Shown piece by piece: positions 44,389-62,306 of a DNA stretch of 64,000 bases; position 1 is the first letter of the stretch; every line of letters starts with the position of its first letter. Made by a program: the position numbers and the translations under genes. The DNA comes from Gammaproteobacteria bacterium (GTDB taxonomy: Bacteria; Pseudomonadota; Gammaproteobacteria; Chromatiales; Chromatiaceae). The notes beneath the pieces are model-generated. The model saw only the letters and a list, made by a program, of their open reading frames with translations. It was not told the origin of the DNA and ran no database searches. The stretch spans positions 1 through 64,000 of the forward strand of contig JAJRZI010000076.1 of NCBI GenBank assembly GCA_024275295.1. The letters run 5' to 3'.

Positions 44389-44967
44389 TCAACTTGCACT
44401 AAACAGACCCGCAAAGCCCATAAACGCCATGGAGAGAATACCTGAAACAATAAGGTTGAAGGCAATACCTTTGACCATTGTTGGTACATCCGACATCTCA
44501 GTCTCATCCCTCAGCCCAGCCATCAATACAATTGCCAATGTAAAACCAGCGCCCGCACCTAAAGCATAGACCAATCCTTGCCACAACCCATAACCTCTAT
44601 TGGTGGCAAAGATGGCAAGACCCAGGATGGCGCAGTTGGTGGTAATCAATGGCAGAAAGATACCCAACGCACGAAACAGTGCAGGGCTAAGTTTCTTGAT
44701 CGCCATCTCAATCAGCTGCACCACACAAGCAATCACCACAATAAAGCTGATCAGACGCAGATAAGGCGCATAGATCAAAACATAGGTATTCAGAATCCAT
44801 GCGCACAGGGCGGTGACAACCATAACAAACGTGGTTGCCAGACCCAGGCGGAATGAGGTGTCCAGTTTGCTGGAGACCCCCAGAAAAGGACACAGACCAA
44901 GGAAGTACGCCAGTACGAAGTTGTTGATCAGCAGGGTGCTGATAAAAATCCAGCCCAAGTCACCCAT
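44389..44967 (-). CDS. rnfA: Rnf complex membrane subunit RnfA
   Basis: A 192-residue protein with six membrane segments and the family start LINNFVLAYFLGLCPFLGVS. The Cys in LGLCPFLG and the Cys in TTNCAILGLA (about 110) fit the ligands of the membrane [2Fe-2S] centre shared with RnfE. It overlaps rnfE by 1 bp. It moves electrons between cytosolic ferredoxin/RnfB and the periplasmic side. Confidence 0.95.
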   Translation of the reverse strand: MGDLGWIFISTLLINNFVLAYFLGLCPFLGVSSKLDTSFRLGLATTFVMVVTALCAWILNTYVLIYAPYLRLISFIVVIACVVQLIEMAIKKLSPALFRALGIFLPLITTNCAILGLAIFATNRGYGLWQGLVYALGAGAGFTLAIVLMAGLRDETEMSDVPTMVKGIAFNLIVSGILSMAFMGFAGLFSAS

Positions 44968-45617
44968 TAGATGTCACTCCCTTCAATCGCTGCGGCCCGC
45001 TCATCAAGTCTCTTCTTCTTCTCTTCAAACCAGTTGAAAAAGAGCAGCATGAAGCCAAGGGTAATAAAACCACCGGGTGGTAAAATCATGATAACCCAGG
45101 GTTCAAAATTATCGCCGAACAGCGGGACACCAAACAGTTTCCCTTCACCCAGGATCTCTCGGATGGCACCCAGCGATACCAGCGCAATCAGAAATCCAGC
45201 AGCCATGCCCAATGCATCAATCAGCGCCATTCGGATGGTATTTCTTGAGGCGAATGCCTCCTGGCGACCCAGGATCAGACACTTCGCGACGATCAGCGGG
45301 ATAAAGGCACCCAGCTCTTTATGTATCGCCGGCACCAGTGCAAGCAGCGAGTAGTCAACTACGGTCACGAAGGTGGCGATGATGATGATGAAGCAGGAGA
45401 TGCGCACCTGTTTGGGAATCAGATTCTTCAGCAGCGAGACCAGAAAGCTGGAACCCACCAGAACAAAACAGGTCGCCAGCCCCATGGCAACACCGTTGAT
45501 TGCAGAGTTGGTCACCGCCAGCATGGGACACATCCCCAATACCTGAACAAAGACCGGGTTCTCACGCCAGATGCCTTTGATAAATTCGTCGTATGCTTGT
45601 TTCTCAGATTTAGCCAT
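44967..45617 (-). CDS. rnfE: Rnf complex membrane subunit RnfE
   Basis: A 216-residue homologue of RnfA/NqrD with six membrane segments. It has FIKGIWRENPVFVQVLGMCP at the start, LAVTNSAINGVAMGLAT and PLIVAKCLILGRQEAFA, the Cys-bearing segments that share the membrane [2Fe-2S] centre. It lies 48 bp after rnfG and overlaps rnfA. The C-terminal tail is charged and cytosolic. Confidence 0.95.
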   Translation of the reverse strand: MAKSEKQAYDEFIKGIWRENPVFVQVLGMCPMLAVTNSAINGVAMGLATCFVLVGSSFLVSLLKNLIPKQVRISCFIIIIATFVTVVDYSLLALVPAIHKELGAFIPLIVAKCLILGRQEAFASRNTIRMALIDALGMAAGFLIALVSLGAIREILGEGKLFGVPLFGDNFEPWVIMILPPGGFITLGFMLLFFNWFEEKKKRLDERAAAIEGSDI

Positions 45618-45665
45618 GATGATCTCGTTTAAGGTCGCCAGGAAGCCCGCCGGTCATCGGCCGGG

Positions 45666-46355
45666 CTACTTTTCCGCATCTACCGCTTTAGGGGCAGCAG
45701 TTGCCACCTTATCCAGCAGCGGCTCAGCGCCGGGTTCCGGCAGTTTGGACAACCAGCGCCCATTACCTTCATTGATAATCCGTACCACCGCCTTGGATGA
45801 GATGGTTGCACCGGTGATGGCATCAATCTCATTCGGTTTGGACTTCTTCCCTTTTTTTACCGCGACGATCTTTGGATCGACACTCAGATGGTCAAAGTTT
45901 GCCACAAAGTCGGCATCTTTATAGATCTTGTCTCCCAGACCCGGGGTCTCTCGGCTATCCAGAATCCACATGCCGACAATCAGTCGCTCAGCAGGTTGGT
46001 AGCCATAGAGCACACTCACCGTATCCTGAAATCCCGGGCCGGCACTGGGGATGGCATAGCCCACAAATTTGCCCGCCGCATCATAACCGCCATAGATAGG
46101 TTCTTCGCCTTTCTCTTCCGTATGGGCAACAACCAGTTTTCTATCCTTGATCACCAGCCTTTGCATCCGCTTCACACCGGGCAGCACGCGAAATACCGCT
46201 TCACGCAACTCCCGGGCCTTGTTCTCTTTAATGGTATCGAAGGTCGCCAGGTAGACAGCAATAATGATAACGCCAGAGATCAGACCCGCAACCGCCAGCG
46301 TCCCGACCAGACGGTTGCTACTTGGTTCAGCAGCCGCTTGTTGTTGTTCACTCAT
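45666..46355 (-). CDS. rnfG: Rnf complex FMN subunit RnfG
   Basis: A 229-residue protein with one N-terminal membrane anchor (about 19-40) and a periplasmic FMN-binding domain. The covalent FMN site is DAITGATISSKAV, with Thr as acceptor, and GLGDKIYKDADF precedes it. Flavinylation would need an ApbE enzyme, not seen in the window. It overlaps rnfD by 4 bp. Confidence 0.95.
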   Translation of the reverse strand: MSEQQQAAAEPSSNRLVGTLAVAGLISGVIIIAVYLATFDTIKENKARELREAVFRVLPGVKRMQRLVIKDRKLVVAHTEEKGEEPIYGGYDAAGKFVGYAIPSAGPGFQDTVSVLYGYQPAERLIVGMWILDSRETPGLGDKIYKDADFVANFDHLSVDPKIVAVKKGKKSKPNEIDAITGATISSKAVVRIINEGNGRWLSKLPEPGAEPLLDKVATAAPKAVDAEK

Positions 46356-47362
46356 TTCGTATCCAGCCCCCGCCCAAATACCCTCGGCTGGGTATAGCGA
46401 TCAATCAAGGGCGTTGTCGCGTTCATCAACAAAATGGCGTACATCATCCCTTCCGGGAAGCCGCCAAAGACGCGGATCAACACCACCAGGAGTCCAATGC
46501 CAACCGCAAAGATCCAGGTGCCCCTTGGCGTCAGCGGAGAGGTAACAGGATCTGTCGCCATAAAGATCGCGCCCAACATCATGCCGCCAGAGAGCGCGGT
46601 AAAGATAGGTCCTGGATATTTGCCAGAGTCCATCATGAAAAGCACTAATGAGAAGGCCATCGCGGTGGCCAGGATACCGACCGGAATACGCCAATCCAGA
46701 TCACGCCGCCACCAGAGATAGAGACCACCCAGGATCAACAGCAGACCACTGGTCTCGCCCAGTGAACCGGAGGTGTTACCAAACAGGAGATCAATAAAGC
46801 CGGTACTGGTGTGCTCGAACTTCATCAAACCCAATGGCGAGGCCTGGGTGACGGTATCCACCACCCCATGCATCAGCGGCATGGCAAATACCGATGCGGG
46901 GATAGTGAAAAAATCACCCGGTGACGTCCAGGTCGTCATCGCAATAGGGAAGGTTGCCAGCAGAAAGGCGCGCCCCACCAGCGCTGGGTTGAACAGATTG
47001 CCACCCATGCCACCCCAGATGGTTTTGCCCATGCCAATGGCCACTGCACCGCCAATAAAGGCCATCCACAAAGGCAGCGCCGGAGGCAACGTCAGCCCCA
47101 GCAACCAGCCCGTCAGGATGGCACTGCCATCACCGAGAAAATAACGCCGCTTCTCCTCCGGTGAGAAACACCATTCGGTCAATACGGCGGCGGCGATGCA
47201 GGTCAAAAGCACCAGCAATGCGCCCATCCCAAAGAACCAGACGCCTGCCAGGGTAGCTGGGGCAAGCGCATACCAGACATCACGCATCACCACCGGCGTG
47301 GTCATCTGCTGCCGCAGTTGTGGCCCGGGTTGAATTAGAAGTTTTGGATCCCTCTGTGTCAC
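46352..47362 (-). CDS. rnfD: Rnf complex membrane subunit RnfD
   Basis: A 336-residue polytopic subunit related to NqrB. It has FNPALVGRAFLLATFPIAMT and further membrane segments. The covalent FMN site of the family (S/T-G-A-T) may correspond to TQASPLG/GEASG-like positions, which I cannot fix by eye. It couples electron flow to ion movement. The GTG start at 47362 overlaps the rnfC stop (GTGA). Confidence 0.94.
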   Translation of the reverse strand: MTQRDPKLLIQPGPQLRQQMTTPVVMRDVWYALAPATLAGVWFFGMGALLVLLTCIAAAVLTEWCFSPEEKRRYFLGDGSAILTGWLLGLTLPPALPLWMAFIGGAVAIGMGKTIWGGMGGNLFNPALVGRAFLLATFPIAMTTWTSPGDFFTIPASVFAMPLMHGVVDTVTQASPLGLMKFEHTSTGFIDLLFGNTSGSLGETSGLLLILGGLYLWWRRDLDWRIPVGILATAMAFSLVLFMMDSGKYPGPIFTALSGGMMLGAIFMATDPVTSPLTPRGTWIFAVGIGLLVVLIRVFGGFPEGMMYAILLMNATTPLIDRYTQPRVFGRGLDTK

Positions 47363-48699
47363 TTAACCTTCCCCTTCATGGATCGCAGATGATCTTTAGC
47401 GGTGCGAATATGCTGCACAATCGGAATACCGGAAGGACATGAGTAGGTGCAACAGCCACACTCTACACAATCCATAACGTTATAGGTTTCAGCCATCTCT
47501 TCATACATGCGTGACTTTGCCAGACGCGCAAAACGAGCTGGATTAAGAAAGTAGGGACAGGCCTCAACACAGCGACCACAACGGATGCAGTTATACTCCT
47601 GTGGACGCCCGGTCTCATGTTCGGTCAACGCCAACACACCCGAACTGCCTTTGAGCATCGGCGCATCCAGGTCGGCTATTGAGGCACCCATCATCGGGCC
47701 GCCCAACACAACCTGGCGTGTCTCCTCCGTAAGTCCACCGGCATAATCCAGCACCTCACGGATCGGCGTTCCGAGCGGCACAATCAGATTGGCAGGGTAG
47801 GAGACACCTGGCCCCGAAACGGTAACAACACGCTCAATCAATGGCTTGCCGGTCTGAAAATAGTCAGCGATAGCAATGATGGTGCCCACATTATTGACCG
47901 CCACCTCGACATCACGCGGCAGCTTGCCTGCTGGCACCTCAATATCGAATACGGATTTGATCAGCATCTTCTCCGCACCCTGAGGGTATTTAACCTCAAG
48001 CGGCATTACGCGGGCAGGCTGCCCGGGCTTGATCGCATCCTGCAGCGCTTTGATGGCATCGGGCTTGTTTCTCTCGACACCGATGACGATCTCTTCCGCA
48101 CCCAGCTTTTGGCGCACAATCTCAGCGCCATAGAGCAGCGCATCGGTCTGTTCCACCATCTGACGATGGTCATTGGTCAGATAGGGTTCGCACTCAGCAC
48201 CATTGATCAGCAGATAACGGATCTTCTGACCATCAGGAATGGCGTACTTCACATGACACGGAAACGCGGCACCACCCATGCCCACGATGCCCGCCTTCTG
48301 CACCTCATTGATGAAATCCTCGATGGAAAGGCTCTCCCAGTCGATAGGATTGACATCCATCTGCTGGGTATCATATTGATCCGCCTCAATCACAATGGCT
48401 TCACGGAAGGTGCCATCAGCATAGCGTTCGGGGCCAATATCCGTGACACGCCCGGTAACCGGACTATGCAGCGCCACAGAGACAAAACCACCCGGTTCTG
48501 CAACCATCTGGCCGCGCTTTACAGTATCGCCTGCCTGCACAATCGCTTTGGCAGGCGCGCCAATGTGCTGGCCCAGCGGTATCACAAAACGCTTACCAAA
48601 AGGCAGGCGCTGGATTGCGAGGTGCTCGGTCTGCTCTTTATGATGACGAGGATGCACCCCATGATCAAAGCTGTTACTTAATCGCCGAAATAGATTCAT
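47359..48699 (-). CDS. rnfC: Rnf complex NADH/ferredoxin-side subunit RnfC
   Basis: A 446-residue peripheral subunit with the RnfC N-terminal domain (GVHPRHHKEQTEHLAIQRLP), a flavin/NADH-binding core resembling NuoF (GMGGAAFPCHVKY, INGAECEPYLTNDHR) and two [4Fe-4S] motifs, CIRCGRCVEACP and CVECGCCTYSCP. The frame extends to a TTG at 48753, but the ATG at 48699 begins the family sequence MNLFRRL. It has no long Lys/Ala-rich C-terminal extension, unlike the E. coli version. A hairpin separates it from sucD. Confidence 0.95.
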   Translation of the reverse strand: MNLFRRLSNSFDHGVHPRHHKEQTEHLAIQRLPFGKRFVIPLGQHIGAPAKAIVQAGDTVKRGQMVAEPGGFVSVALHSPVTGRVTDIGPERYADGTFREAIVIEADQYDTQQMDVNPIDWESLSIEDFINEVQKAGIVGMGGAAFPCHVKYAIPDGQKIRYLLINGAECEPYLTNDHRQMVEQTDALLYGAEIVRQKLGAEEIVIGVERNKPDAIKALQDAIKPGQPARVMPLEVKYPQGAEKMLIKSVFDIEVPAGKLPRDVEVAVNNVGTIIAIADYFQTGKPLIERVVTVSGPGVSYPANLIVPLGTPIREVLDYAGGLTEETRQVVLGGPMMGASIADLDAPMLKGSSGVLALTEHETGRPQEYNCIRCGRCVEACPYFLNPARFARLAKSRMYEEMAETYNVMDCVECGCCTYSCPSGIPIVQHIRTAKDHLRSMKGKVK

Positions 48700-48728
48700 A
48701 TTAAAACGGTTGTCAGTTACCACACTGC

Positions 48729-48773
48729 AGGGTGAGCATTTATACCCAAACAACGGGCATAGATGCTCACCCT
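48729..48773. repeat. REP-like hairpin between sucD and rnfC
   Basis: An 11-bp perfect inverted repeat (agggtgagcat 48729-48739 with atgctcaccct 48763-48773) has a further ccc/ggg pair inside. On the minus strand it reads GTAGGGTGAGCATC..., resembling dispersed GTAGGGTG-type palindromes of many Proteobacteria. Within an operon it may stabilise or process the mRNA between sucD and rnfC. Confidence 0.55.
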
Positions 48774-48784
48774 ACGGATCGCTA

Positions 48785-49660
48785 TTAGCCATTCATCAGC
48801 TTAGCCATATGTTCACCCATATCTGCTGGTGAACGGGAGACCGTCACGCCAGCAGCTTCAAGCGCGGCGATCTTATCGGTAGCTGTACCTTTACCACCAG
48901 AGATGATGGCACCCGCGTGACCCATACGACGCCCTGGAGGCGCGGTCAGGCCTGCAATGTAGGAGACAACTGGCTTGGTGACATTGGCCTTGATGAACTC
49001 AGCGGCCTCTTCCTCTTTGCTGCCGCCGATCTCACCCACCATGATGATGCCTTCAGTCTGCTCATCTTCCTGGAACAGCTTAAGGCAGTCGATAAAGTTC
49101 ATGCCATGAATTGGATCACCACCAATACCCACACAGGTGGACTGGCCCAGGCCTGTCAGAGAGGTCTGACGCACAGCTTCATAAGTCAGTGTACCGGAGC
49201 GTGAAACAACGCCGATCTTACCCGGCTGATGGATAGCGCCCGGCATGATGCCGATCTTGCACTCACCCGGGGTGATAACACCTGGGCAGTTGGGACCAAT
49301 CAGGTAGGGTTTGTTGTGGCCACGCAGAGCGGCCTTCACCTTCAGCATATCAACAACCGGAATACCCTCGGTGATGCAGACAATCACTTTAACGCCTGCA
49401 TCAGCAGCTTCCAGAATGGCATCTGCAGCAAAGGCTGGCGGCACATAGATCATGCTGGCATCAGCACCCGTTGCATCAACGGCATCGGCCACGGTGTTAA
49501 ACACAGGGCGATCCAGGTGGGATTGACCGCCTTTACCTGGGGTTACACCACCAATGATGTTGGTGCCATATTCGATAGCCTGCTCGGCGTGGAAGGTGCC
49601 CTGCTTTCCAGTAAAACCCTGGACGACAACCTTGGTGTCTTTATTGATCAAAATACTCAT
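48785..49660 (-). CDS. sucD: succinyl-CoA synthetase alpha subunit
   Basis: A 291-residue subunit with the CoA-binding Rossmann domain ([20 protein letters not shown]). The phosphohistidine region is [18 protein letters not shown] (His near residue 246). It interconverts succinate, CoA and ATP with succinyl-CoA. In this operon it would feed succinyl-CoA to the 2-oxoacid synthase in the reductive direction, or consume it in the oxidative direction. It is separated from sucC by a lipoprotein gene. Confidence 0.96.
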
Positions 49661-50084: not shown

Positions 50085-50104
50085 CGATAATACGCAACCG
50101 TTGG

Positions 50105-51265
50105 TTAGGCAATAGAGGCGACAACTTTCTTGGCCGCATCAGTCAACCCTTCAGCAGAGATCAGGTTCAAACCACTCTGATCCAGCAACTCCCGGCCCTT
50201 TGGCTCATTGGTGCCCTCCAGTCTCACAACGACGGGGATTGAAATGCCAACCTCTTTAACCGCAGCGATGATACCTTCAGCAATCAGATCGCAGCGTACG
50301 ATACCACCAAAGATATTCACCAGAATGGCCTCAACCTTTGAATCACTCAGGATCAGTTTGAAGGCAGCCGCTACACGCTCAGCAGTGGTGCCACCGCCAA
50401 CATCCAGGAAGTTGGCTGGATCGCCACCGTGCAGCTTGATCAGATCCATGGTGGCCATGGCCAGACCAGCACCGTTTACCATGCAACCGATATTGCCATC
50501 CAGGGTGATGTAGTTGAGATCATGTTTCTGCGCCTCACACTCCTGCGCATCTTCCTGAGAGGTATCACGCATCTCCAACAGATCCGGGCGACGGTAGAGG
50601 GCGTTGTCATCAATATTGATCTTGCCATCCAGCGCCAGCAGGTCGCCATCACCGGTCACGATCAGCGGGTTGATCTCAACCAGGCTCATATCCTTTTCAT
50701 CAAACAACCTATAGAGACCAAGCATAATCTTGGTCAGCGCACCGACCTGCTTGCCTTCCAGCCCCATGCGAAACGCGGCTTGACGACACTGGTATGGCTG
50801 TAGGCCTGCGGCTGGATCAGCGGAAACGGTTACGATCTTTTCAGGCGTCTTCTCTGCAACCTCTTCAATATCCATACCGCCAGATGCAGAGGCCATAAAG
50901 ACAACTCGCTCTGTCGCACGATCGACCACGGCACTCAAATAGAGTTCGCGATCGATATCCAGCGTCTGCTCAATCAGCACCTGGCTGATTGGCAGCTCAT
51001 TCCCATGGGTCTGGAAGGTAGCCAGGCTGCTTCCCAACATGCGGTCAGTCTCTGACTTCAGCTCATCCAGGCTCTTGACCAGTTTTACACCGCCAGCCTT
51101 ACCGCGACCACCGGCATGTATCTGAGCCTTAACCACCCAAGCATCACCACCGATGGCGTTAGCTGCAGATTCAGCATCATTCACTGAGTCGATCATCTGT
51201 CCCACAGGGATGGGAATCCCATATTCTGCGAACAGACCCTTAGCTTGATATTCATGTAAGTTCAT
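50105..51265 (-). CDS. sucC: succinyl-CoA synthetase beta subunit
   Basis: A 386-residue ATP-grasp subunit with the family start [20 protein letters not shown]. The nucleotide site is [19 protein letters not shown]. The carboxylate/CoA-side blocks are [20 protein letters not shown] and [16 protein letters not shown]. It is the normal length and intact. It lies 72 bp after the 1542-residue gene and before the lipoprotein and sucD. Confidence 0.96.
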
Positions 51266-51297
51266 AGGCTTTCACTCAAGTTGTCGGTAAATCAATT

Positions 51298-51326
51298 GTA
51301 GGGTGGGTACATTTTGCACCCAAAAT
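51298..51326. repeat. GTAGGGTG-type hairpin fragment before sucC
   Basis: The sequence gtagggtgggtac...gcaccc pairs gggtg (51301-51305) with caccc (51317-51321). It also overlaps an attttg/caaaat repeat. It resembles, weakly, the hairpin at 48729. It may be a decayed REP element in the spacer between the large PFOR-like gene and sucC. Confidence 0.3.
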
Positions 51327-51337
51327 ATGATCGGCCC

Positions 51338-54300
51338 CTATTTGTATCCTGCCAGTTTCAGCAACTGTTCGCGCACGCGGGCGGACGCCTCCAGCTGTGC
51401 GCTACTCTGCTGTGCGCTGCTCTGCTGCTGGTACTCACTCTTCAATGCCACCAATACGGTTTCATGCTCTTTTGCCAAACGCTCTTCTGCGGCCTGTGTA
51501 ATGGCTGCGGCAAATGGCGTCTCGATACCTGCCAGCTCCTGCAGGGTGCGCCAGGTTTGGGCGCGCTCAGCAATCTCAGCTGCCAGTTCACTGTCGACCC
51601 GGATACGCTGACCCTCTTCACCATCATTCGACACCATGATAAATGGCGTCTTGCCCTGACGCGCTTCACTCTCCAGCCCCAACCAGGCATCCAGTGCTGT
51701 TGGCGCAGGATCTTCATTGGTGATTGGAGCAAAACGGCCGGCAAAACGGCGCTCACTCAAGGCCCACTGTGCAGGGGTAAATGGTGTGCCATTCTCATTA
51801 GCGAGCCAAGGCATCTCCAGCTCTGGGTTGCCTTCCAAGGTAATACGTGAGCCAAACACGCCTTCAGCAGTTGGGTTGTAACGGAACAGCGGGAAGGCTC
51901 GGCTGTTCAATGCAAGTTCAGCCTGTTGCAGGGTCTGGTTTACAGAGAAACCATGCCGTTCCGGACTGGGCACGTGCACATGAATCAGCGCAGGCCCTCT
52001 GTATTTGAGCGCCTCGCGCACACTTTGGCGAAAATGTCCTGATGCAGCGACGGAGGTCTGAGCCACATAGGCAACACGTTGCGCCATGGCCATCAGCCCC
52101 AGATCAGCCTTTGGATCACGTGCCGATGCCAGAGCCGCATCAGCCAGATCACCACCATCCAGGCCAAGCCCCAGATCGGCAAGCACTAACACCTTAACCG
52201 GCAGTTTGGATTTCAACAGCCAGGCAACCTGAGAGAAACCTCGGCCAGCCAGGGCCTCATCATTACCAACCAATAACAGCGGTGGGCAGAGCGCACGTTC
52301 CTGATCGTCCAGATCCTGCCAACTCAGGCCATCCAGTTCAGCACGCAACTGTTGAATGCCTGTTGGCTGATCCAGCTCCAGTTTTGCACTGCGAAGCAGG
52401 CGGTGCGCATTTGTCGACTCACGCAATTGGCCTTCCAACAGTCCGGCTGCCATCTGTGCCGTATCACCTGTAGTGTCCACAGCTACTGGAACCTGGAACG
52501 AATTATTTGGGAAAGCACCGGCCCAGGCCGCAACAGTTCCTGGCGCAATAGCCAGACCAAAGCGGGAGCGCCCCAGCCCGGTCTCACCTTCAGTCAGTCG
52601 CCAATGAAGTTTGGTCAACGCCTTGGCCAGATCCACCAGCCGGCGCAGGTGCAGGGCATTAACATTGCCCTCTTCTACTGATGTTTCAATATGGCTTGTC
52701 AGCTCACCAACATCAACCATCCCGCCCTTGAGCTGATCCAGACCGGCAGTCAAGGCATCAAGATTAGTCACCGGCAGGGCTGAAGCCATCTCTTCGCGGA
52801 TCTGGTCTTTGAGTCGTTGCATGGTCTCTGCAACATCCTTTGTAAAATTGTGCAGCAGAGGCTGCTGTTGATATTCAGTTGCCGCCAGCGCCATGCGGAC
52901 AGCGACCTTCTCACCTGATCCTGACTCGGCGCCATCGCCACCCGTTACTGCCATAGCACAGAAGCGTGACAGCATTACAGCAGCCATTTGGCCAATCTCT
53001 GGATTATCACTGACCTTTTCAATGATCTCTGAAGGGGTATCAGGGGTGGCGCCCCAGATATCCCATATCTCACGTGCCTGTTGCAGACGCGCTTCATCCT
53101 GCTTCTCTGCCTTCATGGCACCCGGCTCACAAACCGAGACACAGATACCGCAGTTCTTACAGGCATTTGGATTTATCGCCAGCGCCAGCAGCGTGCCGCT
53201 ATCCTTTTTCTCTGCTTCACGATCAGCAAAGAAAGGAGCAGTAACCGCTACAGGGAGTGAACCAATCCTGGCGTTGACTGCCTTGAAGGCATCATCCATC
53301 GCCTGCTTGCGATCCTCAGGCAATGGCATCTTCTCTGACAGCCAGGAATAGCCCTCTTCCAGCAATGAACTTACTGAACCACTTTTGGCTTTGCCCGTAC
53401 GAACCTGGCTGCAGATACGTCCAGCGATCTTTGAACCAGATGGGCGCAGGGTATCGCCACCGGCAATCTTGATGCCGGCATCAATCAGCGCACCAGGGGC
53501 AACCGCGACCGCACCGATTGCACCGTCAGGGCAGCTGCTCCAGCATTTGCCACAGCCTGAGCAATCCGTAGGATCAAATGCAGGCAGCATGCGGCGGGTG
53601 TCGCTCAGGTCACGGAAGGTCGAGGTCAGCGGTGGTACAGTGCCTGCCGTAATGTAAGGGTCTGCACTCTGTGACTCTGCCTCACCATTGCGGTAGAGGA
53701 TACCGACCTGATCCCAGAATCGGGGCAGGCTATCATGACACTCATGTTTGCTTTTGAGCTGACGCACAGCGATGGGAGTTGAATCCGCTTTTGCTGTCGA
53801 CCGGGTCGGCTCACTCAATTTGGCATAATCAATCTTTCGAACGGCCGCCATACCTGTCTGAAACGATGCCAGCAGTGGACTGCTGACTTCACTAGAGAGG
53901 CTATTCAGCGCTTCTTCACGGGCAGGGATAAGACGGCGCGCCTTTACATCGACCGCTTCGGCATCCAGCAGGGCCTTAAAGAGTGCACCCAGTAGATGTT
54001 CACGGGTCAGATCAGCCGCCGGGACGCCTGGCACCTTGGCATCTTTGCCACGCGGCATAACGGCATAGAGGGTTAGATTCTTTTGCTTAATGGCCGCACG
54101 TGTATCCGCTGAGAGGCCCTGCCACACAGCCTTGTCGGTACCAGACACCAGCACCATCAGCGCGCCACCATCACGCAGATGGGTGTGCGGCTTGAACAGT
54201 GGATTAGGACGCTTGGCCGCCAGAATAGAGAAATCAACCGTGACATCGTCACCTGTGTCCTGTAGCCCACCGCCTGCATGCGTTACAAGGTCGGTACAGT

Positions 54301-55966
54301 ACGCGCCCCAGCGTTCCCAGCTCTGGCCAGTCCGGCTGCGAAGCTCACCGCCAACCAGGAGATGCAGATAGCTTCCTGCCTCATCGGTGAGTCCCTCGCC
54401 ACCTTGGCCGGTCATACGGTGCACTGCAATGGTCAGTGCATTTTCAGGGCGCAGATCCGGCGCGGCTGTTTTTGCCCGCAGACCCTGTTTGGCAATTTCG
54501 GGGTAGGCACGGCTTAGATTGTCCAGCAGAACCTGGCGCTTTGGATAACGGGTTGATCTCTGTGCAAGATCGACTCCCAGGTAATGGCGTGAGCCGTTGA
54601 GTCGGTCCACATCCTTACATAGAGCGATAAGATCAGCGGCCCTTACAGGCTGGCCACCAATACCGTAGATGGCAGTACGAAGACGAGGTCTTGCCTTTTC
54701 GTCCATCACAGGGATGCCGGGGTGAGTCTGATCGCCATAGCGACTATTCTCTTGGGCTTGATCAAAGGCTGCTCGTATTTCACGTGTCAGCGGGGCATCA
54801 CTTGCCAGTGGGGTTTCGACACGTTCCAGAACGACAACATTCGCACGGCCACGCAGCAGACGAACGATCTCAGCTGAAGGAAATGGGCGTACGGCATGTA
54901 TGCCGACCACGCCTACCCGCTGCTCTGTCTCTGCCAGGATATGTGCCGCAACGGCCTTTGCTGTTTCAATAGCTGAACCCTGTGCTACCAGCACCAGTTT
55001 GGCATTATCTGCTGAGTAGTGAGGCCACTCTGCCGCATCTGTGCCCAGCCCATAACTTGATACAGTGGCATAGTCTCTGCCAGTCTGTTGTGCAAAATCA
55101 GCAATGGCTTCTTGCAGAATAGCGCCAACATGCTGTTCAAAAAAGGCGGTTTGTCCAATCGCGCCCAGGGGATAGACCTCTACACCCTGTAGTGCACCGT
55201 GCATGACAGGGTTATCCAGATCATGCCAGTTTGGCACCTGGCGGCGAGTCTCACCAAACAACATCTTTTGCGCATCGGTCGGGCTCTGGATATTCGTATC
55301 CGCTGCGCCAATGAAACGCTCTGCCAGCTCCTGCGATGCCAGTCTGACATTTTGCAGCGAACGGGCCGTCTGCTCACCATCCATCGCCACCACACCTGGC
55401 ACTAACGCACGCTCAGCGACGCGACGGGCAATCAGTGTGAAATCCACAGCTTCTTGCACGGTGGATGCAACCAGCGTAAAGACGCCTGTATCTGCACACA
55501 GGTGAATGGCCTCATGGCCTGTACCCAGCGCCGGGCCTTGGCCTGAGAGAGCGCTATTCTCTAAATGTACAACCAGTGGAAGATGACGATTGGCGGCCGT
55601 TCGCAGCAGATCCTGAACAGCGCAGAGATCCTGCCCGGAAACAAAGGCGGTTGCCCGTCCTCCAGACATGGAAAGCCCCATCGCAGCAGCCAGTGTGCCA
55701 CGCGGCCCATCGGTCTCGCAGGAAGTGACCAATCCGCCAAAGGCATCGGTATCACGCTGCTCCTGTTCGGATCGCCACGCCTGGGTGGCCCCATCTCCGG
55801 GGAATGTGCTACCCAGTGCGGCAGCCCCAGAGATACCCGCTTCAGTTACAGCAATGGCTGTGTTTCCATCCAGTACTGTCTCTACCCCATCTTCCTTTAC
55901 AGCATTGTCGGAAGAAACAAATAAACGCCGATACAGGCGGATGGCCATGGTGTTGGTACTAGGCAT
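51338..55966 (-). CDS. 1542-residue pyruvate:ferredoxin-oxidoreductase-like protein with degenerate active site
   Basis: Residues about 25-445 resemble PFOR domains I-II (DGNTAIAVTEA; RVGVVGIHAVRPFPSAEIV), but the family YPITP is replaced by TFPGD. About 505-650 fits the gamma-type domain. Two [4Fe-4S] motifs follow: CSGCGKCWSSCP (802-813) and CKNCGICVSVCEP (936-948). About 1225-1335 matches the PFOR thiamine-diphosphate domain (KADLGLMAMAQRVAYVAQ), yet GDGW reads GNDE and the YSNTGGQ segment is absent. The last 210 residues are shared with the 832-residue protein (WRTLQELAG). It is longer than normal PFOR (about 1200). Catalysis is unlikely; electron transfer or scaffolding is inferred. The ATG at 55966 overlaps rnfB by 8 bp; a TTG at 56002 is a less likely start. 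Confidence 0.85.
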   Translation of the reverse strand: MPSTNTMAIRLYRRLFVSSDNAVKEDGVETVLDGNTAIAVTEAGISGAAALGSTFPGDGATQAWRSEQEQRDTDAFGGLVTSCETDGPRGTLAAAMGLSMSGGRATAFVSGQDLCAVQDLLRTAANRHLPLVVHLENSALSGQGPALGTGHEAIHLCADTGVFTLVASTVQEAVDFTLIARRVAERALVPGVVAMDGEQTARSLQNVRLASQELAERFIGAADTNIQSPTDAQKMLFGETRRQVPNWHDLDNPVMHGALQGVEVYPLGAIGQTAFFEQHVGAILQEAIADFAQQTGRDYATVSSYGLGTDAAEWPHYSADNAKLVLVAQGSAIETAKAVAAHILAETEQRVGVVGIHAVRPFPSAEIVRLLRGRANVVVLERVETPLASDAPLTREIRAAFDQAQENSRYGDQTHPGIPVMDEKARPRLRTAIYGIGGQPVRAADLIALCKDVDRLNGSRHYLGVDLAQRSTRYPKRQVLLDNLSRAYPEIAKQGLRAKTAAPDLRPENALTIAVHRMTGQGGEGLTDEAGSYLHLLVGGELRSRTGQSWERWGAYCTDLVTHAGGGLQDTGDDVTVDFSILAAKRPNPLFKPHTHLRDGGALMVLVSGTDKAVWQGLSADTRAAIKQKNLTLYAVMPRGKDAKVPGVPAADLTREHLLGALFKALLDAEAVDVKARRLIPAREEALNSLSSEVSSPLLASFQTGMAAVRKIDYAKLSEPTRSTAKADSTPIAVRQLKSKHECHDSLPRFWDQVGILYRNGEAESQSADPYITAGTVPPLTSTFRDLSDTRRMLPAFDPTDCSGCGKCWSSCPDGAIGAVAVAPGALIDAGIKIAGGDTLRPSGSKIAGRICSQVRTGKAKSGSVSSLLEEGYSWLSEKMPLPEDRKQAMDDAFKAVNARIGSLPVAVTAPFFADREAEKKDSGTLLALAINPNACKNCGICVSVCEPGAMKAEKQDEARLQQAREIWDIWGATPDTPSEIIEKVSDNPEIGQMAAVMLSRFCAMAVTGGDGAESGSGEKVAVRMALAATEYQQQPLLHNFTKDVAETMQRLKDQIREEMASALPVTNLDALTAGLDQLKGGMVDVGELTSHIETSVEEGNVNALHLRRLVDLAKALTKLHWRLTEGETGLGRSRFGLAIAPGTVAAWAGAFPNNSFQVPVAVDTTGDTAQMAAGLLEGQLRESTNAHRLLRSAKLELDQPTGIQQLRAELDGLSWQDLDDQERALCPPLLLVGNDEALAGRGFSQVAWLLKSKLPVKVLVLADLGLGLDGGDLADAALASARDPKADLGLMAMAQRVAYVAQTSVAASGHFRQSVREALKYRGPALIHVHVPSPERHGFSVNQTLQQAELALNSRAFPLFRYNPTAEGVFGSRITLEGNPELEMPWLANENGTPFTPAQWALSERRFAGRFAPITNEDPAPTALDAWLGLESEARQGKTPFIMVSNDGEEGQRIRVDSELAAEIAERAQTWRTLQELAGIETPFAAAITQAAEERLAKEHETVLVALKSEYQQQSSAQQSSAQLEASARVREQLLKLAGYK

Positions 55967-56816
55967 GTCGTTTCTGGCTCTTATCTTGGCTATTTTCTTC
56001 AAACTGGTTACCTTCCAGCCACTTTATTGCACCTGTTGGGCAACGGAAAGTGGCCTTCGGTTTTGCATTGCCGAGATCAAAATGCACGATTGGCAGATTG
56101 TTCTCCATAGTGACTACACCAGGCTCTGCATCTGAGGCGCAACGGCCACAGGCATCACAGGCTACGGTGCATAAAGCCACAGCATCATCACCAGCTAAGG
56201 GATTATTGCATTGAACATAGAGTTTTTCGTTAAGCGGAAGGATTTCAAACAGATCCCGTGGGCAGGCATCAACACAGTCACCACAGGCAGTGCAGAGGTC
56301 AACCTCTACCTTTGGCAGGCCATTGTCATTCATGGTGATCGCGCCGAAGGTGCAGGATATTTCACAATCGGCCAGCCCCAGGCAGCCCCAGGAGCAGCCC
56401 TTGCCACCACCAGAGACCATGTGTGCAGCCCGGCAGCCTTCAAACCCCTGGTACTCGGCAATCTGATGCGCTTCTGCCGCACCACCGGCGCAGCGCAGCC
56501 GCGCCACACGCTTATTCTGCTCGCCCGCATCCACGCCAAGATATTCCGCAATGCTTTCAAGCGCATCAGGGCTTGCTACGGTGCACAGGCTCGGCTCAAC
56601 CTCACCCGAGACCAATTTCTCAGAGAAGGCGCGGCAACCTGGCTCACCGCAGGCACCGCAATTGGTGCCAGGCAGCAGTCCCTCCGTATCATCGATGCGT
56701 GGATCTTCCTCTACCTTCAGGTATCGATAGGCCACCGCAAGGATAACACCAAAAAACAGTCCCAGACCGAGCATGATGCCCGGTGCAGAAAATAATGTTC
56801 CGAGATCAAATGACAT
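55959..56816 (-). CDS. rnfB: RnfB-like ferredoxin subunit
   Basis: A 285-residue protein: N-terminal membrane anchor (about 10-30), RnfB Fe-S cap domain TNCGACGEPGCRAFSEKL, and a ferredoxin-like part with CLGLADCEISCTFGAI and CTACGDCVDACP. A further Cys-rich segment (CTVACDACGRCASDA) makes it longer than E. coli RnfB (192). It is the electron-entry subunit of Rnf, receiving from or giving to ferredoxin. It is encoded away from rnfCDGEA, between the two PFOR-like genes, in the same direction. Confidence 0.92.
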   Translation of the reverse strand: MSFDLGTLFSAPGIMLGLGLFFGVILAVAYRYLKVEEDPRIDDTEGLLPGTNCGACGEPGCRAFSEKLVSGEVEPSLCTVASPDALESIAEYLGVDAGEQNKRVARLRCAGGAAEAHQIAEYQGFEGCRAAHMVSGGGKGCSWGCLGLADCEISCTFGAITMNDNGLPKVEVDLCTACGDCVDACPRDLFEILPLNEKLYVQCNNPLAGDDAVALCTVACDACGRCASDAEPGVVTMENNLPIVHFDLGNAKPKATFRCPTGAIKWLEGNQFEENSQDKSQKRHA

Positions 56817-56914: not shown

Positions 56915-59411
56915 AGTTGTATGCTTCTGCTCGCTTAATCAGATCATCCAAATCCGGCTCATCTGAGTTCAGAGGTTTGCCTGGATGGATGCATTTAGCA
57001 GGGCAGAACTCAGCCGACTCTACCAATTGGGCAAAGGTTCCAGCAGTAGCATCCGCTATATAGGCCTGCTTGTCATCGTTATAGACGAACATCAGCGGGT
57101 TGAGGTTGATACAGTCATTACAGCTGGTGCAGAGTATTGATTCGATCCATGGATCATCAAAGCTCACCTCTTCCTCTTCCGGTTCGGGTGTAGCTTCGGC
57201 TTCAGCAGCCGCAACCTCTGTCGGCGCGCTCTCCTCTGCCGGTGCAGCAGCAGGCGCTGCTGTGGCAGCAACCGGAGCACCCGCAGTGGCAGGCAGTGCT
57301 GCAGAGAGATCCAGGCCAACCAAGGCATCCGCCAGTCGACCCAGCGCCTCAGCCGCCGTCTCGGTGCGAACCCGTTCCAGCTCTTCAGCCTGCTCTTCTC
57401 GCAGTGAATCCATCTCCGCCGCTGCCGCAGCCTGAGCATCGTCACTGGCTCTCTGCGTTGCCAGCTCTACATAGCGGCTGCGTACACCGGCCAACTCCTG
57501 AAGGGTACGCCAGTAATTGCGACGGTCGCGACAGGCCATAACCAATGCGCGGGAGATCACAAGACGCTGCATTACATCCTTGCCATCAACAGCCCAAATA
57601 AACGGCACGCTGCTGTTGGCCTGCTCTTCCGGCAACGCCAACCACTGCGCAACCGGCACCAGATCATCAGAGCTATTCCCTTCGGGAACCACACCAAAAT
57701 GATCCTTCAGACTTGGAATCAGCAGGGCATAATCAGCAAAGGTGAAAGAGAGCTCTGAGGTTATCGAGTTGCCATCAGCGTCGATATAGCTGTAGTTGTG
57801 GTTCGGCCAATCATGCTCGGCCTGAGGGTTGCTGCTGAAATCCATGCGGGAGGCAAAATCATCACCTGCATCAGGATTGATCAGAAAGAATGGATGGGCA
57901 CGCCCTTCCAGTGCAGCACTGGCCACAAACCAGGGATCAAGGCTACCGCCTTCAGATGATTTAACGCCTGTACTGACCAAATGCAGGCCTGTACGGGTAG
58001 CATCAAGTGCCAGCCCATACTGCTCCAGCAGGTGCTCATAGCGCGCCGCAGAAGATTGCGCAACCACAGCTTGGCGATGGCTGATGCCAAGATAGCCCAA
58101 CTCAACACGAAAACGCTGAAATGGATCTTCACCCTCACCAGCAGCCGGGTTGTTGTGAGCCTGAACCCGTACCAATATCTGTACCGGGCGACCGGAACTC
58201 AGCAACTGTGAAAAGGAGGAGAGACCACTGCCGGCAACATTGTTAGCATTATCAATGGCCACAATGGTCGGTATCAGCAACAGCTCTTCTTGGGAAAATC
58301 CTTCCCAGCCAAAATTCTTGAACCAGGCGTCATGAATCGCAGGCTTGTAGGCATCTTTGCTTTCAAGTTTGGCAATACGCAGCGCAGCAAAAACCTTGGC
58401 CAGCTTTTCTGCTTCTGCATCGAAGGTAGCCGCAGCAACTGAACAGGGATCAGCATTGCTCACCGATGCAAAATCAGCTGCATCTGCCAACAGGGTTTCG
58501 CCCAGCTTATCAGTATGCACTGCACGCACCAGCACGGGATCATTCTGGTAGGCGTCAAGAATTTCCAACGCGCCTTCAATGCGTTTACGGCGCGCTGCAG
58601 CCATCGGGGTTGAACCCTGTGAGTGGTTCATCATCTTCGACATGGCCGTGGCGTTGAAAAAGTTGTTTGAAGCACCAATGCTCTGCTTGAGTGCCGTTGA
58701 TTTTCTTGCGGAGGCTAATTTGCTCTTTTCCACCGCCAACAATGCTTTCAGACTAGCGGCCAGCTGGGAGACTTCCTGACTGAATGCTGCGCGTCGAGGG
58801 GCTGATTTACAGCGCGCCACATGAAGCAACAGGTAGATGGCGGCCAAACGCCCATAGCCCAGAAACTGGCTACCTGCCTCAACAGCAGCAACCAGCTGAT
58901 CCAGATCAGCCTGCAGGCGTTCAACGTGCTCACCCTTCAGATCAAGCTGAGCCTGCAACGCCTTTGCCGCATCAGCCACCAGAGGGGCAGCATCTACTGG
59001 CGTCTCCTGACCTTGCAGCTTGCTGCACAGCTCACGCTCAATCCAGGCAAGATTATCTTTAAGGATACGTGCGCTTTCAGTGGCAGGAGCAAATCCTTCT
59101 ACCGCATCCCCGAGAAAACGAGAAAGCGGTTTTGCCAAAGCATCACCATCAGCTGTCTCTGCTGGAAAGAGGAACAACGGGTAGTCGTACCTAACCTTCG
59201 AAACATCCCGAAAGCTGTTCAGTGAGACGGGCAGGAATTCGCTGCTAACCTTGCCGAGTGTGGACTTGGCACCAGGCTCACCCAGATGAAAGTGGCGCAG
59301 AGTGCTCATCAGCTCATCAGAGGCATCCGCAGAAGCGGGGAGAAAAGGTACCCCTCCCGCGCTTCGCTCTGGTTCCTGCAGCGGCTGCTTTTTACTAGCT
59401 TGTGCTGTCAT
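56913..59411 (-). CDS. 832-residue PFOR-related protein with C-terminal ferredoxin domain
   Basis: The N-terminal half (about 1-370) is helical and unrecognised. Residues about 375-650 align with the end of the 1542-residue protein: LLSSGRPVQILVRVQ with LLKSKLPVKVLVLAD, LEGRAHPFFLINPDAG with LNSRAFPLFRYNPTAE, and WRTLQELAG in both. This is the thiamine-domain region without GDG or other cofactor residues. An Ala/Pro/Glu linker (about 700-750) leads to a ferredoxin-type domain with CTSCNDC (761-767) and CPAKC (803-807). It looks like an electron-relay or docking subunit. It follows korB by 24 bp. Confidence 0.8.
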   Translation of the reverse strand: MTAQASKKQPLQEPERSAGGVPFLPASADASDELMSTLRHFHLGEPGAKSTLGKVSSEFLPVSLNSFRDVSKVRYDYPLFLFPAETADGDALAKPLSRFLGDAVEGFAPATESARILKDNLAWIERELCSKLQGQETPVDAAPLVADAAKALQAQLDLKGEHVERLQADLDQLVAAVEAGSQFLGYGRLAAIYLLLHVARCKSAPRRAAFSQEVSQLAASLKALLAVEKSKLASARKSTALKQSIGASNNFFNATAMSKMMNHSQGSTPMAAARRKRIEGALEILDAYQNDPVLVRAVHTDKLGETLLADAADFASVSNADPCSVAAATFDAEAEKLAKVFAALRIAKLESKDAYKPAIHDAWFKNFGWEGFSQEELLLIPTIVAIDNANNVAGSGLSSFSQLLSSGRPVQILVRVQAHNNPAAGEGEDPFQRFRVELGYLGISHRQAVVAQSSAARYEHLLEQYGLALDATRTGLHLVSTGVKSSEGGSLDPWFVASAALEGRAHPFFLINPDAGDDFASRMDFSSNPQAEHDWPNHNYSYIDADGNSITSELSFTFADYALLIPSLKDHFGVVPEGNSSDDLVPVAQWLALPEEQANSSVPFIWAVDGKDVMQRLVISRALVMACRDRRNYWRTLQELAGVRSRYVELATQRASDDAQAAAAAEMDSLREEQAEELERVRTETAAEALGRLADALVGLDLSAALPATAGAPVAATAAPAAAPAEESAPTEVAAAEAEATPEPEEEEVSFDDPWIESILCTSCNDCINLNPLMFVYNDDKQAYIADATAGTFAQLVESAEFCPAKCIHPGKPLNSDEPDLDDLIKRAEAYN

Positions 59412-59435: not shown

Positions 59436-60389
59436 TTAGATCGAGAAGGAGTCAAGCGCCTTGTTGATACCGACGAGCTTGTCCTCATCGGACATGCCAA
59501 GACCTACGTTGCTCCAATCGTCATACACTGGGGCATCCGGGTTGTGATAGAGCAGGCCACAAGGCACCTTGCCGGTGTCACGCGCTATTGCCATGGCACC
59601 ATTCCAGTCGGATGGATCATGCACTACCTGATTCGGGTAGATGCGCTCAACCGCTTCATTGGTTGGGATGCCGTTCTCATGCTTCAGCAGCAGGATCTGG
59701 GACGGGTCATTCTGCATCTCTTTGTGTACATCCTCTACAAAGACTGGGCAACGCTGGATGATGCGAACAAAGCTGGTGCCGCGGTGGGCATGCGCTTTTT
59801 TGATCGTTTCATAGACCAGCAGCGGGTTCCAGTCCACAACCTGAGCCACGAAAGATACATTGGATACACCCAAGGTAACGGTCAGTGGATTCAGTGGCGG
59901 CAGGAAGGCACCGGTTGGGTGCGTATTGGTTTTGAGACCCTGCGGGCTGGTTGGTGAACTCTGCTTTTTGGTCAGACCATAAACGGCATTATCAAACACC
60001 AGTACGGTCAGATTCATGTTGTAGCGTAGCGCGTGTACCCAGTGGCAGCCGCCAATGGAGAAACAGTCGCCATCTCCAGTGGAGACCCAGACATCCAGAT
60101 CCGGGCGACGCGCCTTTACGCCAGAGGCAAAAGGAAGCGCCCGGCCATGCAGGCCGTGGAAGCCGTAGGTGCTCATGTAGTGTGGCAGGCGGCTGGAGCA
60201 GCCGATGCCGGATACAGAGACAATCTTCTCCGGTGGCAGCTGCGCCTCGCGGCACACCTTATGCACCGCGGTCAGTACGCCATGATCACCACAACCGGTA
60301 CACCAGCGTGGCTTGGCGCCTTCATAATCTTCAATCGTAAAATAGCGGTCTTGAACGTCAAGTGACCAATCTGCTTTAAGTCCGAACAT
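59436..60389 (-). CDS. korB: 2-oxoacid:ferredoxin oxidoreductase beta subunit (probably 2-oxoglutarate)
   Basis: A 317-residue thiamine-diphosphate subunit. The Fe-S/thiamine block is PRWCTGCGDHGVL (Cys near 30-33). The cofactor motif is intact: STGDGDCFSIGGCHWVHALR, then NAVYGLTKKQSSPTS. The fourth cluster ligand is likely in RCPVF. It forms a catalytic heterodimer with korA. The substrate is inferred as succinyl-CoA/2-oxoglutarate from the sucCD context; pyruvate remains possible. The start is 12 bp after korA. Confidence 0.92.
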   Translation of the reverse strand: MFGLKADWSLDVQDRYFTIEDYEGAKPRWCTGCGDHGVLTAVHKVCREAQLPPEKIVSVSGIGCSSRLPHYMSTYGFHGLHGRALPFASGVKARRPDLDVWVSTGDGDCFSIGGCHWVHALRYNMNLTVLVFDNAVYGLTKKQSSPTSPQGLKTNTHPTGAFLPPLNPLTVTLGVSNVSFVAQVVDWNPLLVYETIKKAHAHRGTSFVRIIQRCPVFVEDVHKEMQNDPSQILLLKHENGIPTNEAVERIYPNQVVHDPSDWNGAMAIARDTGKVPCGLLYHNPDAPVYDDWSNVGLGMSDEDKLVGINKALDSFSI

Positions 60390-60401: not shown

Positions 60402-62306
60402 CTAATTCAGTTTCTCAAGGCGACCAAGAACGGCCTTACAAATCACACCCGGCTGCAACGGCGCACCCTGGACAATAGACCAGCAATCAATATCCATCAC
60501 CAGCTGAGCACGCAGGATATTAGCCAATTGGGCATAACGTCGAGTTGCATCATTGATGAGCGGCATATCGGGTTCGTCGCTGTAGTTCAGCTCAACGGTC
60601 ATGACATGCTTGAACTTGGAGAAGATCTCTTTCAAATCCTTCTCAAAGGGATGCAGGAAGCGCAGATGAACATTGGAGACCTTGTGGCCATCCGCACGCA
60701 TGCGATCCACAGCCTCCTGAACAGCGCCCATGGTGGAACCCCAGGTCACGACAAGCATGTCGCCCTCTTTGTCACCATAGATTTCGGGCCTCTGCAGGGT
60801 AGCGGCCACGGCAGCCATCTTGCGGCTGCGCATGTTGCAACCGGTCTGGTTGGACATGGAGTCATAAGCTACTTTACTGCGTTTGGTGTGAGCCAAACCG
60901 GTCAGGACATACTCACCACCCGGCTGACCAGGGATTGGACGTGGTGAGAGACCTGTCTCTTCATCCCAGTCATAGGCGGGTACATTTTTGTCCCACTCGG
61001 ACTGATCAATCGGTGCAGCGAGCCATTCGGCCTGCGGCTCTGGACGGTCATAAGGCTGTACGCCGGTAGCCAGGTTGGCATCGGTCAGGATGATGACCGG
61101 GGTACGGAAGGCTTCGGCCAGCTTGCGGGCTGTAACAACAAAGTGGAAACACTCAGAGATGGTGGCAGGTGCCATGATGATCTTGGGCGCATCGCCGGTC
61201 ATGCTATAGAGTGCAGAGAGCAGATCGCCCTGTTCAACCTTGGTCGGCAGGCCGGTTGAAGGGCCACCACGCTGGACATTGACGACAACCAGCGGGATCT
61301 CGCACATCACAGCCAAACCCAGAACCTCGGTCTTAAGCGCCATGCCCGGACCCGAAGTAACAGTAACGGCGGTCTTGCCTGAGAAGGAAGAGCCTACCGC
61401 ATAAGCAGCCGCTGCGATCTCATCTTCCGCCTGATGCATATAACCACCTGTCAGATGAAAGGTATCAGCCAGATAGTGGGAGACAGAGGTTGCCGGGGTG
61501 ATGGGGTACATTGCCAGCAGATCCATGCCTGAAGCCAAAACACCCAGGCCGATAGCCGTGTTGCCGTTGGTTACCACGGTAGGCTTCTGCACGCCTTCCT
61601 GCTCTGGTGGAACCTCGTAGTGGTAGTCGAGGTTGTCAGCAGCATACTGGTATCCCGCCTTAAACAGCTCATGGTTTGGCTTGATGACCTTCTCGCCTTT
61701 GCGTGCAAAGGTCTTGGCGATCTCATCCAGTGCACGTTGGGCGTCACGGCTGTAGATGCGGCAGAGCATGCCAAGTACAAACATGTTTTTACCCTTGCGG
61801 GCATTTTTGACGATCTTGAGACACTCTTTTTCGAGCGGCAGCTCATGAATAACCAGCCCGCGCTCTTTGAAATCGGCTACCGCTTTCGCATAATCCTCAC
61901 GAATCTGCGGCTGCGGATCATCTGCCCACTTGTTTTCCAGCAGAACAACCGTCCCTTCCCTGAAGGCACCGTTTTCAATGCGGTTGTAGAGCACCTGTTC
62001 GTTGAAGGCTACGACCAGGTCAGCATCATCGCCCATGTTGGTGATGTATTTGTGGCCCAGGCGGATGCGGACGCCACTGGCGCCCTCCTTAGAGCGGGCT
62101 GGTGGCTGGATTTCAGCGGGGATAATCTCCACCGTCCAGACACCATTACCCATCTTGCCACTAACGATTCCAAAGGTCTGTCCGCACTTCTGGGCACCTT
62201 CGCCAGAGTCACTGACTACCTCAATGATATGCTCGTCAATACGCTTCGGTTTTCCTGCGGAAATCTCAGCGACATTGCTTTTTTGCGCTGTTGCTTGTTT
62301 AGTCAT
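60402..62306 (-). CDS. korA: 2-oxoacid:ferredoxin oxidoreductase alpha subunit (gamma-alpha fusion)
   Basis: A 634-residue KorA. The gamma domain (about 20-220) has GEGAQKCGQTFGIVSGKMGN. The alpha domain (about 240-634) has NGNTAIGLGVLASG, the substrate motif YPITPATS, EDEIAAAAYAVGSSFSGKTA, TSGPGMALKTEVLGL and VQRGGPSTGLPTKVEQGD. All expected motifs are intact. With korB it catalyses reversible CoA-dependent oxidative decarboxylation with ferredoxin. It has its own upstream promoter region and leads the long operon. Confidence 0.93.
   Translation of the reverse strand: MTKQATAQKSNVAEISAGKPKRIDEHIIEVVSDSGEGAQKCGQTFGIVSGKMGNGVWTVEIIPAEIQPPARSKEGASGVRIRLGHKYITNMGDDADLVVAFNEQVLYNRIENGAFREGTVVLLENKWADDPQPQIREDYAKAVADFKERGLVIHELPLEKECLKIVKNARKGKNMFVLGMLCRIYSRDAQRALDEIAKTFARKGEKVIKPNHELFKAGYQYAADNLDYHYEVPPEQEGVQKPTVVTNGNTAIGLGVLASGMDLLAMYPITPATSVSHYLADTFHLTGGYMHQAEDEIAAAAYAVGSSFSGKTAVTVTSGPGMALKTEVLGLAVMCEIPLVVVNVQRGGPSTGLPTKVEQGDLLSALYSMTGDAPKIIMAPATISECFHFVVTARKLAEAFRTPVIILTDANLATGVQPYDRPEPQAEWLAAPIDQSEWDKNVPAYDWDEETGLSPRPIPGQPGGEYVLTGLAHTKRSKVAYDSMSNQTGCNMRSRKMAAVAATLQRPEIYGDKEGDMLVVTWGSTMGAVQEAVDRMRADGHKVSNVHLRFLHPFEKDLKEIFSKFKHVMTVELNYSDEPDMPLINDATRRYAQLANILRAQLVMDIDCWSIVQGAPLQPGVICKAVLGRLEKLN

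Follow-up and report, generated by a model that had tools for sequence, protein, structure and literature searches.

Gene content of the locus

The window, meaning the whole stretch of DNA that was analysed, comprises the first 64,000 nucleotides of contig JAJRZI010000076.1 from a Chromatiaceae genome (assembly GCA_024275295.1). Its minus strand carries, in reading order, NuoF-like, korA, korB, P832, rnfB, P1542, sucC, a 125-aa frame, sucD, rnfC, rnfD, rnfG, rnfE and rnfA; from korA onward the intergenic spacing is -8 to 96 bases. All window coordinates below refer to this strand. P1542 (51338..55966) has 1542 aa, read from ATG, and the 3' end of RnfB (55959..56816) overlaps its start by 8 bases. 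Upstream lie P832 (56913..59411), a short paralogue; KorB (59436..60389); KorA (60402..62306); and, 291 bases before korA, a NuoF-like flavoprotein (FMN, 4Fe-4S; 62598..63845) that is a possible further electron partner. Downstream are open reading frames that we take, from their sequences, to be SucC (50105..51265), SucD (48785..49660), RnfC (47359..48753) and RnfD, RnfG, RnfE and RnfA (44389..47362). Homologues of SucC and SucD occupy the same place in several relatives, the order of the last four frames is shared by relatives, and RnfC is the sole full RnfC match of the genome. The nearest named relatives are MAGs assigned to Gammaproteobacteria (three), Sedimenticola (one) and Polarisedimenticolaceae (one). 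A scan for promoters and terminators gave no clear excess over shuffles.

The P1542 gene belongs to the rnf operon, a linkage not previously noted. On the operon strand, CxxCxxC motifs are carried only by NuoF-like, P832, RnfB, P1542 and RnfC, and no stand-alone CxxCxxC ferredoxin is encoded there. All six subunits of the Rnf complex RnfABCDGE are encoded around P1542, as rnfB-[P1542-sucCD]-rnfCDGEA; unlike known Rnf, the operon has an additional PFOR-derived pair. The additional Rnf parts proposed in the available text of PMC4014512 are RnfH, RnfX, RnfY and endonuclease III, with no PFOR relative among them.

Two side features of the neighbourhood may be recorded. The 125-aa frame between sucC and sucD (49707-50084) is lipoprotein-like and shares 79-86% identity with its counterparts in the five closest relatives. 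In locus L047 (15955-19473; Pfam applied to this locus only), a NuoF-like gene, an FAD_binding_2 flavoprotein and a 2Fe-2S/4Fe-4S protein stand on the same strand, and L045, L048 and L053 have frames sized like the genes of this flavoprotein module. The NuoF-like group before korA is perhaps a further NADH-linked electron module.

Cofactor sites of P1542

A preliminary description took P1542 to be a PFOR-like protein with the domain order of that enzyme, and profile searches bear this out. Its Pfam matches (POR_N at 90-224, PFOR_II at 322-404 and two Fer4 stretches) fall in PFOR order, the domain order I-II-III-V-VI is present, and PFORs in the PDB match at 1e-23 to 1e-24, the KADLGLMAMAQ segment included. 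With approximate limits, the protein consists of domain I (31-260), domain II (322-404), a domain III-like part (about 515-690), two [4Fe-4S] motifs, a dead PP domain or domain VI (1225-1380) and a C-terminal helical part. TPP_enzyme_C at 1250-1330 stays below threshold (15.3 bits vs a cut-off of 21.9), and the score of 137.4 bits against the NCBIfam PFOR model TIGR02176 is far under the family cut-off of 911.35. Judged by sequence, P1542 falls outside the PFOR enzyme family.

Active-site letters were read by alignment with two intact PFORs (L064 and L065) encoded elsewhere in the same genome. The loss of the thiamine diphosphate (ThDP) site, already proposed, is confirmed at each position. 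At the place of YPITP (residues 52-56; 55799..55813), T31 is replaced by F55, and E64 is replaced by P88. The GDG of PFOR aligns with N-D-E at 1235-1237, the letters at that place also reading GND (1234-1236; 52259..52267), and LGLDGGD (1267-1273; 52148..52168) stands where YSNTGGQ is expected, with L1269 for the N. The roles of T31, E64 and R114 are those assigned in work on the Desulfovibrio enzyme, whose numbering agrees with the matched PDB chain. A further loss, which had escaped the preliminary description, concerns the proximal cluster: its four cysteines are replaced by E1014, S1017, T1144 and S1334. Retention of two [4Fe-4S] motifs, of the form CxxCxxCxxxC, had been noted correctly; they span C802-C812 (53531..53563) and C936-C946 (53129..53161). 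P1542 resembles single-chain PFOR (TIGR02176; PDB 1b0p, 6cin and 7plm) in domain order, in the eight cysteines of the medial and distal clusters and in overall similarity, to 1e-24, but differs in having no ThDP site and no proximal cluster, in being about 300 residues longer and in lying inside an rnf operon.

Decay of P1542 as a pseudogene is ruled out by dN/dS and residue conservation. Against five relatives, overall dN/dS is 0.056-0.084 and that of the dead PP domain 0.02-0.07; with dS near saturation these values are rough, as are those for KorA (0.058-0.076, like P1542) and for RnfB and SucC (lower, 0.032-0.042). Purifying selection and residue conservation together indicate that P1542 is a product of neither chance nor decay. 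AlphaFold models of P1542 760-1542 (the window plus L008-L012) and of P832 (the window plus L008-L011) were built on shallow alignments and reached pLDDT values of only 38.8 and 33.1.

Two families in rnf operons

Homologues were surveyed at two levels. In a class-level sample of 369 genomes, 26 had a match to P1542 at E 1e-60 or better; these comprise family A (40-50% identity, ~1540 aa, with one group of ~1290 aa that has no domain III), family B (~29% identity, ~1650 aa) and G332, a single divergent dead form that has korAB. In the order of the source genome, 119 of 210 genomes match at 1e-100, and sorting by identity and length (A 37-100%, B 26-30%; at most two candidates scored per genome) gave 41 genomes with family A and 78 with family B only. 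Sequences read letter by letter were 11 A and 16 B in a first set and 28 A and 40 B loci in a second, the 40 B loci coming from 36 B-only genomes (of 78) and four genomes with both families. The resulting 39 family-A rows may hold a few duplicates, L008 and L010 perhaps being two of L109-L113.

Family B resembles P1542 in lying in the same operon, usually directly after rnfB, in a similar extra length and in 26-30% identity along almost the entire protein; it differs from family A in that the ThDP site and proximal cluster are intact, the ferredoxin is in the same chain and korAB and P832 are not beside it. This intact sister family was missed by the preliminary description. Already in the first-set alignment, the ThDP site was intact in 16/16 B and dead in 11/11 A, with the medial and distal cysteines kept in all. 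Over both sets, all six ThDP-site letters (T31, E64, the G, D and G of GDG, and the N of YSNTGG) occur in 56/56 family-B proteins and none to two of the six in 39/39 of family A. The eight medial and distal cysteines, four in each motif, are present in 39/39 A and 56/56 B. Proximal cysteines are found in 0/39 of family A at three positions and 2/39 at the fourth, and in 56/56 of family B at each. The C-terminal ferredoxin is present in 0/39 of family A and 55/56 of family B.

These counts bear on whether P1542 is still an enzyme, working with a different cofactor or reaction through its PYR, domain II and domain III folds. The PYR and PP domains are constrained about as strongly as the Fe-S part (dN/dS 0.02-0.08), and some ligand letters survive in family A: R114 in 24/39, the GDG aspartate in 15/39 and the second GDG glycine in 5/39. 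The surviving aspartate and R114 neither prove nor exclude another ligand. Against an enzyme stand the scarcity of ThDP letters, the absence of a full proximal set from any of the 39 and the variation of the substituting residues among family-A members. Domain III, moreover, is missing from two family-A proteins (L050 and L051; window residues ~509-720) and probably from a third (L053), which shows it to be dispensable. We consider a changed enzymatic activity very unlikely.

The position of the long gene is conserved. rnfB lies directly upstream in 27/28 A and 40/40 B loci of the second set and in 15/16 full-length B loci of the first, the exceptions being an A locus (L128) and a B locus in which rnfB follows the cluster (L071); nor is rnfB directly upstream in Persicobacter. 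In the B loci of the first set, rnfC comes after the PFOR gene wherever the contig continues; in the second set, rnfC or sucC was seen downstream in 26/28 A and 30/40 B loci, and the unseen B cases have flanks shorter than 0.9 kb. By this conserved place within the rnf operon, seen in the rnfB counts and in the 100/100 RnfC clade described below, P1542 has the position of an Rnf subunit. The sucCD genes stand between P1542 and rnfC in some family-A loci only. Upstream, korA, korB and P832 are found in 12/12 fetched family-A loci with room for them, as in the window; of the family-B loci that extend at least 4.6 kb upstream, 0/14 carry them on the same strand.

Four genomes of the class sample (G350, G218, G167 and G343) each hold one A and one B gene. 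The A gene is dead, and the B gene is intact in the three genomes where its full sequence was read (G350, G218 and G167); the two might serve different 2-oxoacids.

Association with KorAB

The operon was also described as containing KorAB with intact motifs, and this proved right. KorA retains YPITP and its gamma (POR) domain, and KorB its ThDP motif (GDGD, YGLTK) and cysteines 30, 33, 64 and 214; the ThDP motifs of both and the KorB cysteines are intact in 14/14. Pfam finds no ferredoxin domain in KorA or KorB. The pair thus keeps the ThDP motifs and single-cluster cysteines of KorAB 2-oxoglutarate:ferredoxin oxidoreductase, and the KorA type differs from other KorA in being almost confined to genomes with P1542 and P832 (41 of its 43 carriers).

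Among the 210 genomes of the order, KorA of the operon type (66-100% identity) is present in 41/41 family-A genomes and 2/169 others, three matches at 34-36% identity being counted as another KorA. The two carriers without family A are G776 (no P1542 match, 88% complete) and G793 (B only, 69% complete). Fisher's test, which ignores genome relatedness, gives 1e-41 for the association. In the class-level set, KorA occurs in 10/11 family-A genomes, in G332 and in 0/16 B-only genomes. On the same strand and within 6 kb, korA lies upstream of the family-A gene in 27/41 genomes; in 12/41 it lies on a different contig (G939, assembled in about 20 contigs, is one of these), and in 2/41 it shares the contig but has been rearranged. 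Direct operon linkage of korA with family A is therefore not universal.

These figures must be weighed against the possibility that P1542 and P832 act as accessory subunits of Rnf, binding soluble ferredoxin or any other low-potential donor, with KorAB merely co-regulated and reducing free ferredoxin. Adjacency to rnfB (27/28) is stronger than direct adjacency to korA (27/41), as this alternative predicts, and family B lies in rnf operons that have no korAB (0/14 loci as above). However, the KorA type accompanies family A in every genome of the order even when it is not adjacent, the operon has no stand-alone CxxCxxC ferredoxin, and the cofactor sites lost and kept in family A complement those of KorAB. 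We regard the free-ferredoxin alternative as a serious one, if rather unlikely.

The KorAB score against the OAFO_sf subfamily (508.6 vs a cut-off of 482.75) and the presence of sucCD in the operon are hints, though only hints, that 2-oxoglutarate may be the substrate. Separately, replacement of the 2-oxoglutarate dehydrogenase complex by the KorAB system was considered. A search for SucA with TIGR00239 gave no clean pattern: SucA is present in the source genome and absent from 4/11 family-A and 3/16 B-only genomes.

P832 as a second dead copy

The preliminary description passed over P832, a homologue of family B in its C-terminal half. The best match of P832 is to family B (300 bits over residues 300-831), that to P1542 being weaker (102 bits), and another member aligns over 184-832 with family B 1011-1656, ferredoxin included. 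Its PP site is dead, with IDN in place of GDG. In a set of 15 rows, cysteine stands at a proximal position in one cell only (G332), and all four cysteines of the C-terminal single-cluster ferredoxin (761, 764, 767 and 803; 57003..57131) are kept in 14/15.

These two proteins might instead be pure scaffold, holding KorAB on Rnf with clusters that are structural. Their large size, their helical insertions and the presence of two dead copies side by side would fit such a role. What speaks against it is which cysteines are kept: all eight of P1542 and, with one exception, the four of P832 remain, and the proximal four are gone. This selective retention of the medial, distal and ferredoxin ligands argues for redox use, and we hold a purely structural role to be most improbable.

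In a tree of the C-terminal part, the long copies (family A and G332) group at 100/96, the short copies at 94/83, and these two dead groups join at 97/93, either beside family B or inside it; long branches are flagged. Topology tests did not reject monophyly of B (p 0.58), short copies with B (p 0.51) or long and short copies together without G332 (p 0.25). Since the latter two alternatives stand unrejected, loss of the ThDP site may have been separate in the two copies. On the sequence evidence, the simplest account would be that an intact ancestor was duplicated and its clusters were then divided between a long and a short copy.

Locus L045, from a single-contig genome (G034), has KorA in two pieces and a P832 frame that shifts before the ferredoxin, through frameshifts or sequencing errors; the family-A long protein beside these broken frames is intact.

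Gemmatirosa and Persicobacter

Family B in these surveys comprises Gammaproteobacteria and Persicobacter, and a related intact form occurs in Gemmatirosa. A plasmid of Gemmatirosa kalamazoonensis carries korA-korB-(344-aa frame)-rnfB-PFOR-rnfCDGEA, and its PFOR is intact in 11/11 tested letters. On a plasmid of Persicobacter psychrovividus, a family-B PFOR precedes rnfCDGEA and rnfB comes last; the 20 kb read there contain no korAB.

In a tree of RnfC, the PFOR-linked operons form one side of a 100/100 branch, opposite 17 ordinary Rnf from genomes outside the 26 class-level matches (L086-L091, family-B operons or contig edges, were left out). RnfC of Gemmatirosa falls with that of family A and G332 (98/91), the internal order being unresolved, and RnfC of Persicobacter with that of family B (100/98). 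In the long-protein tree, Gemmatirosa stays outside a group of family A and G332 (SH-aLRT 99), but this is a place where long branches meet. Because Gemmatirosa has korAB beside an intact PFOR and an RnfC that groups with family A, these data suggest, without proving, that KorAB joined the operon before the ThDP site was lost.

The order rnfB...rnfCDGEA of the window (44389-56816) is that of Chlorobi and Bacteroidetes, most proteobacteria having rnfABCDGE, according to the available text of PMC4014512. Together with the nesting of Persicobacter in family B, this order is a hint of transfer between phyla.

The Gemmatirosa 344-aa frame (L177, about 5987-7016), between korB and rnfB, occupies the place of P832 and has no Pfam match. 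Its collinear similarity to the dead copies is insignificant (hmmsearch E 0.4-1; hhalign probability <4%); compared with 200 shuffles, it came first for two of three profiles and outside the top rows for the third.

Proposed function

Purifying selection on every domain, the lack of any other CxxCxxC ferredoxin in the operon and close co-occurrence argue for P1542 and P832 as a conduit from KorAB to RnfB. A role as wire or scaffold, suggested at the outset for P1542 without recognising that the protein is tied first to Rnf, is the best-supported reading of the sequence data. In its specific form, P1542 would be a pseudo-PFOR that docks KorAB to the Rnf ion pump and conducts electrons between them, and we think this is probably correct.

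Such an arrangement could have arisen as follows. An ancestral Rnf operon would have included a PFOR complete in one chain, like that of family B now, with electrons passing from ThDP through the proximal, medial and distal clusters and the C-terminal ferredoxin to RnfB. On one branch, KorAB may have entered the operon and the PFOR been split by duplication, the long copy (P1542) keeping the medial and distal clusters and the short copy (P832) the C-terminal ferredoxin. Both copies would have lost ThDP and the proximal cluster, now supplied by KorAB, which has ThDP and one cluster and no ferredoxin subunit. The sites that family B has in a single chain (ThDP and the proximal, medial, distal and ferredoxin clusters) are divided, in family A, among KorAB, P1542 and P832.

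In the forward direction, electrons from the oxidation of 2-oxoglutarate would pass from KorB through P1542 and P832 to RnfB, RnfC and NAD+, coupled to ion pumping. In reverse, an ion gradient and NADH could drive reductive carboxylation of succinyl-CoA. The sucCD genes in the operon suit both directions. More broadly, these operons may encode a 2-oxoacid oxidoreductase wired permanently into an ion pump, in which family B is a complete dehydrogenase within Rnf, family A a derivative whose catalysis was swapped to KorAB while the dead original was split as a wire, leaving ThDP and the proximal cluster in one pair of proteins and the other clusters in the second, and Gemmatirosa a surviving intermediate. 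To this wider account we would give an even chance.

Relation to known systems and significance

No description of a PFOR relative as part of Rnf was found in the available open-access literature, a scope that leaves most subscription journals outside. By sequence comparison, the P1542 system appears to be new as a variant that combines the known PFOR fold, KorAB and Rnf. In the available text of PMC11636981 on Candidatus Endoriftia, dimeric korAB and a 'PFOR-like' gene fall together under sulfide limitation, and the reductive TCA cluster rises; there the 'PFOR-like' gene is named only, and its sequence, a dead site and a link to Rnf are not discussed. We infer that it may be the same as the P1542-type gene.

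If the proposed function is correct, some sulfur bacteria and their relatives would link the oxidation of 2-oxoacids, or carboxylation that fixes CO2, straight to an ion pump, bypassing free ferredoxin. The energy accounting of the TCA and reductive TCA cycles would then change, which would be relevant to tubeworm symbionts. The operons would also form an unusually complete series, from an intact PFOR on Rnf, through KorAB beside an intact PFOR, to duplication and catalytic death. Such a series would show an enzyme becoming an electron conduit, and it could be tested on the sister family that is still intact and on the versions found on plasmids of two named species.
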